Assembly (NCBI RefSeq): GCF_021233435.1
Contig: NZ_CP089468.1
Coordinates: 1,860,001 to 1,924,000 of the forward strand
Length of the DNA stretch: 64,000 nt
From: Halobacterium noricense
GTDB taxonomy: Archaea > Halobacteriota > Halobacteria > Halobacteriales > Halobacteriaceae
Direction: 5' to 3'
Shown here: positions 46,052-49,421 of the stretch, piece by piece
How positions within the stretch are numbered: the first letter of the stretch is position 1
Layout: every line of letters starts with the position of its first letter
Notes under the pieces: model-generated
Databases searched by the model: none
Told to the model about the DNA's origin: nothing
The model's input: the letters and a program-made list of their open reading frames with translations, nothing else
Made by a program: the position numbers and the translations under genes

Positions 46052-46338
46052 TTACGTGGCGAGGCGCGCGACCGTCTCCTCGCCGCGGTCTTCGTTCCCC
46101 ATTCAAGGTGAAAGTGAAATGGCGATTCCGACCGTTTCACCCTTCTACACACTTGGCAGTCGGGAAAGGTTCTTATCCAGCGGAACTTGTTCTTCGTACC
46201 GGTAGACAAGCCAAAGTGAGGAAATCGCAATTCACCGACGCTAACGGTGATTAAACACGCGAGTCGCGGGCCAAAACGATTTGCCGAACGCTTGCCATCC
46301 ATCCCGGTGCCGCAATTGAGAGACCCGAAAACGCCGAA
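46052..46338. other. Gene-free left junction of the lower-G+C segment
   Basis: About 290 bp with no gene recognised. G+C drops from about 46100 on. It contains an inverted repeat GTGAAA/TTTCAC (46114-46119 and 46135-46140) and a small CACCG/CGGTG stem near 46235. A TTCTTATCC at about 46170 looks like a promoter element, but only a 12-codon frame follows. It may be debris from insertion of the toxin-antitoxin-like pair. Confidence 0.4.
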
Positions 46339-47214
46339 CTAGTTGGCCGTGGGTTGAACCGTATCACCATCGCGGTCAAGAATTTGTTTTTCGACGAGAC
46401 GATCTATCCCAGCAGAGACCGCCTCCTCGTCGCCAACTGACAACTCCCGGACGTTCGAAAGAACACGTTCACTGATCGCACGTGGACTCCGGAGACCCTC
46501 ATCGACCGCTTCCAAGATACCGTACTCAACTTCGAATCCGGTTGCGAACGCTGACACGCGACCCGTAAACGAGGGAGGGAGCCCAGAAAGCGACTGAACA
46601 GCCATCTCGATAGTGAACAACGGGTGCGATTGATCTCGGATATGCGTCGCTTCAGTTGATCCGATATTGAACGGACGCTGTTCCTCAATCTCTTCTAGGA
46701 TCACCTCGTAGGCGAGTCCACGCTGCGCGTACGTCCGCATATCCTCAATGTCGCGTCGTCTGCCAGCCCCTAAGTCGCCGCCGGACACTGCCTTCAACAA
46801 GAACATATCCTCATCAGCGAGCACGTACGCCGTTGCGTGCTCCCCTGGCCAGAACTCGTCCGCTCGGTCGTGCATGCTCGTTGTGATCCAGACTTTCCCG
46901 ACAACCTGTTGCTCAAACAAGTCGACCCGGAACCCGCGCTCGGGATGGTGGAGTTCAACTGTTTTCCCGACCCCTTCGAATGACGCTGTCGGCTCGCCTG
47001 TCACGTGAAACCCTTGTTCTCGAAGGGCGTGATAGACGTGTTCGAATTCGGTTGGCACGCTCAGTGCCAAGTCGATATCTTGGGTTTGGTCTTTCAGACC
47101 GTGAACCGTCATTGCAGACCCGCCAAGGAGGTACACGTCCACCGATTCTGAGAGCCACTCATCAAACTCGGTAAGAAACGTCCTGATGGCCTCCTCACCG
47201 GTGAAGACGGTCAT
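46339..47214 (-). CDS. Nucleotidyltransferase-fold protein, AbiEii/DUF6036-like
   Basis: A 291-residue protein. Residues 25-60 have the nucleotidyltransferase motif VYLLGGSAMTVHGLKDQTQD then IDLALSV, with GGS at 31-33 and the metal pair D46 and D48; a third Asp is in GFRVDLFEQ. DMFLLKAVSGGDLGAGRRRD follows, as in DUF6036 proteins. The C-terminal part (about 190-291) looks like a winged helix with LSSVRELSVG-like sequence. It starts immediately after the stop of the winged-helix gene upstream, an antitoxin-toxin order. A toxin role, by analogy with AbiEii, is inferred. Confidence 0.75.
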   Translation of the reverse strand: MTVFTGEEAIRTFLTEFDEWLSESVDVYLLGGSAMTVHGLKDQTQDIDLALSVPTEFEHVYHALREQGFHVTGEPTASFEGVGKTVELHHPERGFRVDLFEQQVVGKVWITTSMHDRADEFWPGEHATAYVLADEDMFLLKAVSGGDLGAGRRRDIEDMRTYAQRGLAYEVILEEIEEQRPFNIGSTEATHIRDQSHPLFTIEMAVQSLSGLPPSFTGRVSAFATGFEVEYGILEAVDEGLRSPRAISERVLSNVRELSVGDEEAVSAGIDRLVEKQILDRDGDTVQPTAN

Positions 47215-48171
47215 TTATGCGACTCCATACTGGTCTTTCAGCACCGCGTATTCTTGAGCGCTCGGCAAGGGACTCTCCGCCTCCATCTCATCGGCGGCGT
47301 CGGTGCCCCCGTCTATAAGACGATACATCCGGGGTATCGTTGATTCTAGACCGTACCAAGTCGCAGTCTCGGTGAGGATTTCCTGTTCAATTCGTTCCTG
47401 TTCGATGAGAAGCATCGTATAGCTCACGCGTCGGGAGTCCGTTTCAAGGACGAGCGTATGGCAAACGATGTCTGCAGGGGTGAGATCGTCGTCTGGGGCG
47501 TACCAGAAGGCGGGTTGTCCTGCGAGAAAGAACTGTAGGCCGTACGCTTGGAATTTCGCTAATCCAGTCACGTCCCAGTCATCGGCGTTCTGGAGTTTGT
47601 CCGTGTCTTCGGAGTTCTGTACTTGGACAAGTGCGCGTTTCGGGTCACACCACGCAATCGTGGCACTGGGTGCTAGTCGCCGAACGCGGTTGCGGTGGTC
47701 ATGCCTGACGACGGTGTTGGCGAATTCGAGTAAGGGGTGAAGATCGTCGGCGAGTGCGTACTCTGGTCCGTCAGGCGCGAGCATCGCTCGGTTCTTCAAA
47801 GGGGATAACGCCTTGTGGACGGCCTGTCGCGTAATTCCTAATCGGTCAGCGATCGTGGTGATGCGGCGTGGCTCATCGAGGTACCAGCAGACCTGTATCG
47901 TAGCAGGTGAGAGGAGGTCTTCCCAGTCCACGTGCCCGAGGTTCGATGTCAGATTCCGGTACGCTTCGACAATAGGATCGTCAGAGGCGCGCAGGACACG
48001 CTGGTTGTGCTGTGCTCGGGACTCGTCCAGTACCCCTATGTCGAGTAAGTCGTCAACGACGCGGTAGACTTGCTTGCGACTATATCCGGTTTCTGCGGCC
48101 AGCTCTTGTGCGGTCGCGTCCCCCCCGGAACTCAGCACATCCAGAATAGCGATCCCGGCCTTCGTAAGCAT
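47215..48171 (-). CDS. Double winged-helix protein, candidate antitoxin/regulator
   Basis: A 318-residue protein with two DNA-binding regions: AGIAILDVLSSGGDATAQEL then AAETGYSRKQVYRVVDDLLD (about 5-45), and IQVCWYLDEPRRITTIADRL then GITRQAVHKALSPLKNRA (about 90-130). A mixed C-terminal domain of about 180 residues follows, with no known motif. It is directly followed by the nucleotidyltransferase gene without a gap. Its promoter carries a perfect 16-bp palindrome over the TATA box, so it probably represses its own operon. Confidence 0.75.
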   Translation of the reverse strand: MLTKAGIAILDVLSSGGDATAQELAAETGYSRKQVYRVVDDLLDIGVLDESRAQHNQRVLRASDDPIVEAYRNLTSNLGHVDWEDLLSPATIQVCWYLDEPRRITTIADRLGITRQAVHKALSPLKNRAMLAPDGPEYALADDLHPLLEFANTVVRHDHRNRVRRLAPSATIAWCDPKRALVQVQNSEDTDKLQNADDWDVTGLAKFQAYGLQFFLAGQPAFWYAPDDDLTPADIVCHTLVLETDSRRVSYTMLLIEQERIEQEILTETATWYGLESTIPRMYRLIDGGTDAADEMEAESPLPSAQEYAVLKDQYGVA

Positions 48172-48172
48172 C

Positions 48173-48227
48173 TTTGTAAACTATATTGTCTCAACAGTTA
48201 TAACTGTTTCCGCATTTTGGTTTACAA
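48173..48227 (-). promoter_or_regulatory. Nested palindromes over the promoter of the winged-helix/NTase operon
   Basis: A perfect 16-bp palindrome, AACAGTTATAACTGTT, at 48193-48208 contains the TATA element, centred about 29 bp before the start codon of the leaderless-type gene. It is enclosed by a second inverted repeat, TTGTAAAC (48174-48181) and GTTTACAA (48220-48227). A dimeric repressor here would block TBP binding. The winged-helix protein encoded directly downstream is the natural candidate. Confidence 0.65.
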
Positions 48228-48491
48228 CTCCGAGGATCGGACCGGGTTTCGATGATTCGTCGTCGTTCTCAAAGACGCAGCTTGTGGTCCACTTCCTTGA
48301 GAAATCTGAGCGGTTTGTTGATCTTAATGAAGGCCTGTTTAACATGGGTTCTACAGATTTTCAAGTCATCCCGTCTGGTATCGTTACCGTCATCGATACT
48401 GAGTCATCGTTGCGCAGATCTTCAACGGGCAGACTAACTTTTCAAGAAGGTGATAGCTATTCTTGAGGAGTAAAATAGCGCTGTTAATGTT
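48228..48491. other. AT-rich stretch between operon promoter and mutY
   Basis: About 260 bp with no convincing gene. A frame on the plus strand (48252-48466) reads SSSFSKTQLVVHFLEKSERF and VDLNEGLFNMGSTDFQVIPS, which looks protein-like, but it lacks a start and is cut off; it may be a fragment of a lost gene. No other feature is seen. The G+C is lower than anywhere else in the window apart from the neighbouring genes. Confidence 0.4.
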
Positions 48492-49421
48492 TTATTTCTG
48501 AAGACGGGCGATAGGCACGTCGCCAGCTTCGTCAACTTCGGCCAATTCATCCTCCGCCAAATCAGACAGTAACTCTCGAAGCCACTCCCGTCCGTGCTCA
48601 CCGTCAGGTGTGTAGTCAACGCGAATTCGATGGCCAAGTGTGTCCAGCTCCATCTCGTCGTGTTCGCCGAGGAGTCGAACGATCCGCCCGCGGAACTGTC
48701 GCCTGCTCCCCTCGAAGCTCGGTTGTGTCGGAACGTCTGGTGCGGTGAAGTCGCCGGTCTGGTACGCGTGACACCACTCGCGCCACGGGCAACTGGCCTC
48801 GTCACACCGTGGTTTCTTCCCGCAGGCGACACCGCCGAGTTCCATAATCGTATTGTTCCAGATTCGGGACTCTCCGGCCGGCATGAGGGCATTCGCTACG
48901 GTTTCGTAGTCCGGATCGTCCGCATTACGGATTTCTGCAAACGCGCGGTAGAGCACGCGCTTGACGTTCGTGTCCACGACCGCGTCGCCGTTGTCGAACG
49001 CGAACGACGCGACGGCGTTGGCGGTGTACGGGCCGACGCCCATCAGTTCGGAGAGTTCGTCGGGCGTCTCCGGGAACTCGCCCTCATATTCGCTTTCGAC
49101 CTGCTGGGCGGCCTCGTGGAGGTACTTCGCGCGGTTGTTGTACCCGAGGCTGTTCGCCGACCAGAACCCGACGACGTCCGCGCGGTCCGCAGCCGCGAGG
49201 TCGGTGGTCGTCGGCCACCGTTCGAGGAACGCGTGGTAGGCGTCCTCGACGCGGGAGAGCTGGGTCTGCTGGCTCATCACCTCCGAGACGAGAATCGCGT
49301 ACGGGTCGTCGGTGCGGCGCCACGGGAAGTCCCGGTGGCCGTCCTCGTACCACGCGACGAGCGCGTCCCGGACGGCGTCGACGTCGCTGGGGAGTGCGAA
49401 CTCCCCGTCCCCCTCAGTCAT
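48492..49421 (-). CDS. mutY: A/G-specific adenine glycosylase
   Basis: Removes adenine mispaired with 8-oxoguanine. The 309-residue protein has DFPWRRTDDPYAILVSEVMS then QQTQLSRV (catalytic Glu in VSEVM), the helix-hairpin-helix MGVGPYTANAVASFAFDN, the catalytic VVDTNVKRVLYRAF, and the 4Fe-4S cluster in CGKKPRCDEASCPWREWC. It ends with a short C-terminal domain rather than the full MutT-like one. Third-position G+C falls in the 3' half (about 48492-48950), so this part seems recombined with the neighbouring acquired segment. It works with Ogg to avoid 8-oxoG mutations. Confidence 0.93.
   Translation of the reverse strand: MTEGDGEFALPSDVDAVRDALVAWYEDGHRDFPWRRTDDPYAILVSEVMSQQTQLSRVEDAYHAFLERWPTTTDLAAADRADVVGFWSANSLGYNNRAKYLHEAAQQVESEYEGEFPETPDELSELMGVGPYTANAVASFAFDNGDAVVDTNVKRVLYRAFAEIRNADDPDYETVANALMPAGESRIWNNTIMELGGVACGKKPRCDEASCPWREWCHAYQTGDFTAPDVPTQPSFEGSRRQFRGRIVRLLGEHDEMELDTLGHRIRVDYTPDGEHGREWLRELLSDLAEDELAEVDEAGDVPIARLQK

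Follow-up and report, generated by a model that had tools for sequence, protein, structure and literature searches.

A winged-helix regulator and MenT-fold nucleotidyltransferase gene pair as a probable, horizontally spread toxin-antitoxin-type module of haloarchaea

Background

AbiEi, a winged-helix protein, and AbiEii, a nucleotidyltransferase (NTase), form a type IV toxin-antitoxin pair with self-repression. Toxin-antitoxin systems with an NTase are known mainly from bacteria, and toxins of the MenT kind add nucleotides to the acceptor end of tRNA. AbiE and the mycobacterial MenAT4 share with the locus described here the gene order, i.e. a winged-helix regulator first and an NTase second, the NTase superfamily, and inverted repeats that cover the promoter (PMC3985639, PMC7319586). 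MenAT4 (Rv2827c/Rv2826c) possesses two sets of such promoter repeats, as does the present pair. In MenAT1 of M. tuberculosis (Rv0078A/MenA1) toxicity of MenT1 needs residues D41, K137 and D152, and the phosphoacceptor residue is T39 (PMC10435456, PMC11375011).

The gene pair under study belongs to Halobacterium noricense (contig NZ_CP089468.1). "The window" denotes the whole stretch of DNA that was analysed, 64,000 nucleotides long (contig positions 1,860,001 to 1,924,000), and coordinates refer to this window unless another locus is named. An initial annotation, made from the sequence alone, had compared the pair with AbiE.

The gene pair and its proteins

Two open reading frames on the reverse strand adjoin without a gap. 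The first encodes a winged-helix regulator, the putative antitoxin (47215-48171, 318 aa), the second a MenT-fold NTase, the putative toxin (46339-47214, 291 aa). The initial annotation had recognised this arrangement, as well as the GGS and DxD motifs of the NTase (GGS at residues 31-33, DID at residues 46-48), its own C-terminal winged helix and the low G+C content of the pair, which amounts to 56.7% vs 67.3% in the rest of the window. It had also assigned two winged helices to the regulator, present at residues ~4-62 and ~89-140, and missed the C-terminal HVO_2833_C domain (~196-317), which follows a long helix (142-166). With 172.1 bits against PF24271 (gathering cut-off 34) the regulator is a member of the HVO_2833_C family; Pfam names this domain without a function, and its link to an NTase partner is made here. 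The AF2 model of the regulator (mean pLDDT 89.6) bears out the domain layout. In the AF2 model of the NTase (mean pLDDT 86.9) the C-terminal ~65 residues (225-290) resemble small winged-helix domains (Z ~8). The dN/dS ratio is 0.12-0.18 for the regulator (vs six relatives) and 0.06-0.21 for the NTase, values that indicate purifying selection on both genes. The same genome contains a broken second HVO_2833_C copy with an in-frame TGA (C1:1417178-1417529).

Insertion at mutY

The pair occupies a conserved unit (46282-48228, reverse strand) that seven genomes from other genera of haloarchaea share at 90-92% DNA identity and with different flanks. The unit lies in a 2.48 kb insert (46095-48576) that is absent from the rest of the genus: mutY is present in 13/13 genomes of Halobacterium, its 3' end is intact and uninterrupted in the other 12, and a universal stress gene directly follows it wherever the examined flank includes the neighbour. 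In the window mutY (48492-49421) is a hybrid of a genus-like 5' part and a Halovenus-like 3' part, with a crossover near 48940-49000. The 3' half that appears donor-derived (48492-48940, reverse strand) resembles Halovenus at 82-95% per 60-bp block, and the nearest genus-mates at 54-79%. On the far side of the insert lies the native 3' end of mutY, displaced to 46052-46094 (reverse strand) and alignable to that of the genus-mates. Downstream of the pair lies a histidine-kinase (HATPase) remnant (46257-46313, reverse strand), the first part of which is common to close relatives. These features indicate a recent acquisition of the pair in low-G+C foreign DNA at mutY.

The hybrid mutY fits homologous recombination anchored in mutY, combined with one non-homologous junction. 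The alternative of an integrase-type attachment site in mutY was rejected, no identical core being visible at both junctions. The left junction (46085-46170) carries a 44-bp motif, GGTGAAAGTGAA..CGATTCCGACCG, that also occurs, 84% identical, in an island of Halovenus (L153 6819-6900).

Distribution and genomic neighbourhood

The NTase is found in 142/292 genomes of the class and the regulator domain in 179/292, and relatives of the NTase occur in 91 plasmid records. The pair is accessory, not core: the patchy, often plasmid-borne occurrence is at odds with a core, vertically inherited locus of all haloarchaea, the situation that the initial annotation had named as contrary to its reading. A close relative of the pair lies on a contig that is probably of Halovenus rubra, 8.7 kb downstream of mutY and within an island that contains histidine kinases, an N6-methyltransferase, NurA, a large AAA ATPase, and SAVED-TIR and E1-E2-JAB proteins. 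The SAVED-TIR effector of this island adjoins the E1-E2-JAB protein in a CBASS-like manner (L153 7460-11097). In Salinibaculum a HerA-type helicase is located beside the pair.

Promoter and double dyad

The promoter of the pair appears leaderless in layout. An operator-like double dyad (48174-48227, reverse strand) is centred on the TATA box. Its outer arms (48174-48181 and 48220-48227) form a perfect 8-bp inverted repeat, extend as close as 2 nt to the start codon and share their centre with a perfect 16 bp palindrome, AACAGTTATAACTGTT (48193-48208), across the TATA box. Both elements had been pointed out in the initial annotation, and both are real; the 16-mer is nevertheless weak as evidence, because six perfect palindromes of at least 16 bp occur in the window (2.3 expected after block shuffling) and because it is absent from the ~90% identical relatives. 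The palindrome was for this reason discarded as a conserved operator and the outer dyad, which is conserved, takes its place. An inner dyad of different sequence recurs in other clades, the 16-mer being the version of this copy only.

The upstream sequences of 61 regulators in seven homologue groups were compared after alignment about the start codon. The best dyad centre falls on the TATA box, at position -27 or position -29, in 7/7 groups. In the outer arms (20-25 bp from the centre) 87% of cells are complementary vs 58% permuted, and in the inner arms (9-13 bp from the centre) 64% vs 41%, in a permutation that ignores relatedness and covers the groups other than the solo-regulator group of the ~60% clade; complementarity in the stretch between inner and outer arms is no higher than permuted. 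The fixed position of the dyad centre across deep groups is independent of this neglect of relatedness. In the window clade the outer-arm sequence is TTGTAAAC, in other clades TGTAACA, TGTTGCA or TTGTCTCA; changes are clade-specific and compensatory, i.e. both sides switch together and self-complementarity is kept. Concentric dyads with co-varying arms are as expected of a self-repression operator, and the element is regarded as a putative one. One group of solo regulators has lost the outer dyad.

Gene pairing and asymmetry of loss

Of 56 distinct pairs, 53 have a spacing of -4, 0 or +1 nt between the stop codon of the regulator and the start of the NTase. Regulator and NTase distances are correlated within the window clade (r 0.93; 0/1000 permutations as high, in a test that ignores phylogeny). 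A survey of 59 related genomes, in which all PF24271 matches were listed, produced 38 NTase matches. The regulator is located directly upstream in 34 of them, one of these being a fusion; two lie ~1.4 kb from the regulator, one match is a fused protein and one a pseudogene. No intact NTase without a linked or fused regulator is present among the 38 matches. Conversely, 18 of 54 full-length regulators are solo, lacking an NTase partner, and at four of the solo loci that were inspected a remnant of the NTase gene is left, namely its start, an N-terminal fragment or a deleted version. The regulator persists without the NTase, not the reverse, as would be anticipated if a cell that still has the NTase pays a price for losing the regulator.

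Several arrangements depart from the simple pair. In two plasmid records of distant genera an annotated TnpB/transposase gene lies, at identical spacing, within the ~1.4 kb between regulator and NTase (L102 and L103, 3618-4847). Two genomes encode single chains of 551-553 aa in which a tandem winged helix, an HVO_2833_C-like domain and the NTase are naturally fused (L154 985-2646; L155 105-1760). A plasmid gene string of Halobaculum XH14 contains regulator and NTase, and a similar string in H. salinarum pHS3 and Har. marismortui pNG600 contains the regulator without the NTase, next to a restriction endonuclease; these strings provide a natural comparison with and without the NTase.

The solo regulators, which sit in such conserved plasmid gene strings and operons, speak for a regulatory pair without a toxin. 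The NTase would here be a signal-dependent modifier, acting for instance by AMPylation on the winged-helix repressor or on other targets, and the pair would control plasmid or island genes. Since solo regulators exist, such a non-toxic role retains some probability, and the two natural fusions of regulator and NTase into one chain as well as the purifying selection on both genes agree with it. We nevertheless consider it unlikely: intact regulators stand beside broken NTases while the reverse is not seen in any of the 38 matches, and the NTase keeps a MenT1-type fold with all four catalytic residues.

Fold and active site of the nucleotidyltransferase

The closest fold match of the NTase model is MenT1 (8an5; Z 12.4, rmsd 3.6, 183 residues aligned), and Foldseek concurs (E 7.8e-7 against the same structure), so that the predicted fold is that of a MenT NTase. 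The first match other than MenT1 follows at Z 9.6; ANT(2'')-Ia (Z 9.1-9.3), LnuA (Z 8.9), MenT3 and MenT4 (both at Z 8.5-8.9) are in the same list. Motifs I and II (47071-47124, reverse strand) comprise the GGS of residues 31-33, T44, D46 and D48. T44, D46, K141 and D155 are invariant in 26/26 NTase sequences, down to ~25% identity. T44 and D46 are the likely equivalents of MenT1 T39 and D41, the T-x-D-x-D segment being aligned by a profile search at a weak E of 0.027; K141 and D155 correspond to K137 and D152 by order and spacing (95 and 14 residues in the window NTase vs 96 and 15 in MenT1). All four catalytic residues of MenT1 have equivalents in the NTase by these comparisons. In contrast to MenT1, the NTase possesses a C-terminal winged helix, and its partner, a 318-aa tandem winged-helix regulator, bears no relation to MenA1, the short antitoxin of MenT1.

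The ANT(2'')-Ia and LnuA matches would also suit a small-molecule NTase that inactivates an antibiotic or a metabolite in the manner of ANT/Lnu enzymes, under its own repressor. We regard this as highly improbable, as MenT1 is well ahead of both, the MenT-type K141 and D155 equivalents are invariant, and plasmid multiplicity and the decay pattern suit addiction modules better.

Sequence-based searches with the NTase return little. It matches nothing in Pfam (E<=1), NCBIfam or PADLOC scans and just one unnamed family in PHROGs (E 3e-5), and searches against PDB sequences give no convincing match, MenT1 being the best profile match at the E value given above. No HEPN domain is found among the 25 best Pfam matches listed and the partner is a winged-helix protein, so the pair is not of the HEPN/MNT type.

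Relation to AbiE and DUF6036

The reading of the pair as AbiE-like is supported as a functional analogy and not as a family membership. The analogy is supported because the operon is bicistronic with the regulator first, its promoter carries inverted repeats, the NTase has the predicted MenT fold and catalytic residues, the spread over plasmids and defence islands is patchy and the regulator outlives the NTase. Canonical AbiE was rejected on profile comparison of both proteins. HHalign of the NTase against haloarchaeal AbiEii gives a probability of 0.7%, PF08843 (AbiEii/DUF1814) is not matched at E<=1, and the motif spacing is GGx13DxD, not x15 as in AbiEii, and the fourth residue ahead of the first Asp is not Arg. 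The regulator aligns with AbiEi in the generic winged helix only (59% probability); instead of one winged helix and the AbiEi C-terminal domain it has two winged helices and HVO_2833_C, and neither its C-terminal domain nor the NTase gives a profile match to haloarchaeal AbiE. Fold matches listed for the regulator model are single winged helices, AbiEi not among them. Two winged helices in the regulator, rather than one, also set the pair apart from MenAT4, as do dyads that are concentric and not tandem as in the known systems. A true type IV system diverged in sequence, for which shared gene order, NTase superfamily and promoter repeats speak (PMC3985639, PMC7319586), is thus barely credible beside the profile probabilities, the altered motif spacing and the missing Arg. 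A canonical AbiEii match (PF08843, E 1.8e-37), possibly N-terminally shortened, is encoded elsewhere in the same genome (C1:1223269-1223895).

For DUF6036 (PF19502) the outcome is divided. The window NTase and its ~70-90% clade receive no score from this model, whereas ~30% identical homologues on haloarchaeal plasmids, with the same kind of winged-helix partner, exceed the Pfam cut-off (25.1-36.6 bits, cut-off 23.6) and are annotated as DUF6036. The NTase is accordingly best described as an apparent distant relative of DUF6036 beyond the reach of the model. The literature searched, outside of which most subscription journals lie, contains no mention of DUF6036 or HVO_2833.

Discussion

The pair is read here as a horizontally spread archaeal module of toxin-antitoxin type, in which the MenT-fold NTase would be the toxin and the winged-helix protein would both repress its own operon and act as antitoxin; we give this a probability of roughly two in three. 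Regulator and NTase genes constitute a closely coupled operon and are inherited together. The two concentric dyads on the TATA box fit a dimer presenting four winged helices, and its binding would block TBP/TFB and the start of transcription. The HVO_2833_C domain may normally keep the NTase inactive, either by contact, which is plausible because natural regulator-NTase fusions exist, or via phosphorylation of T44, the presumed counterpart of the MenT1 phosphoacceptor T39, which the domain would promote. When the level of regulator falls, e.g. after plasmid loss, under stress or during infection, the NTase would be freed to add nucleotides to RNA, most likely at the acceptor end of tRNA, and translation would be arrested. 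The benefit may lie in maintenance of the plasmid or island, in abortive defence or in both.

Some observations count against the toxin-antitoxin reading. The regulator can function independently, given its solo copies on conserved plasmid operons, one group of which is without the outer dyad; no match to the pair occurs in the phages and viral contigs searched; the C-terminal winged helix of the NTase, which MenT1 lacks, has no part in the scheme; and MenA1, the antitoxin of MenT1, is short and unrelated to the regulator.

A wider reading, to which we give slightly less than an even chance, is that of a large undescribed archaeal toxin-antitoxin family, present in about half of the sampled haloarchaeal genomes, whose tandem winged-helix antitoxin shuts its own promoter via concentric dyads round the TATA box and uses the new antitoxin domain HVO_2833_C to keep a tRNA-modifying NTase in check, antitoxin and toxin being fused in one chain in some lineages. 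If confirmed, plasmids and defence islands of haloarchaea would harbour a native and abundant NTase module, HVO_2833_C and the relatives of DUF6036, both unassigned domains, would gain a function, and the pair would offer a simple archaeal case of autorepression by covering of the TATA box.
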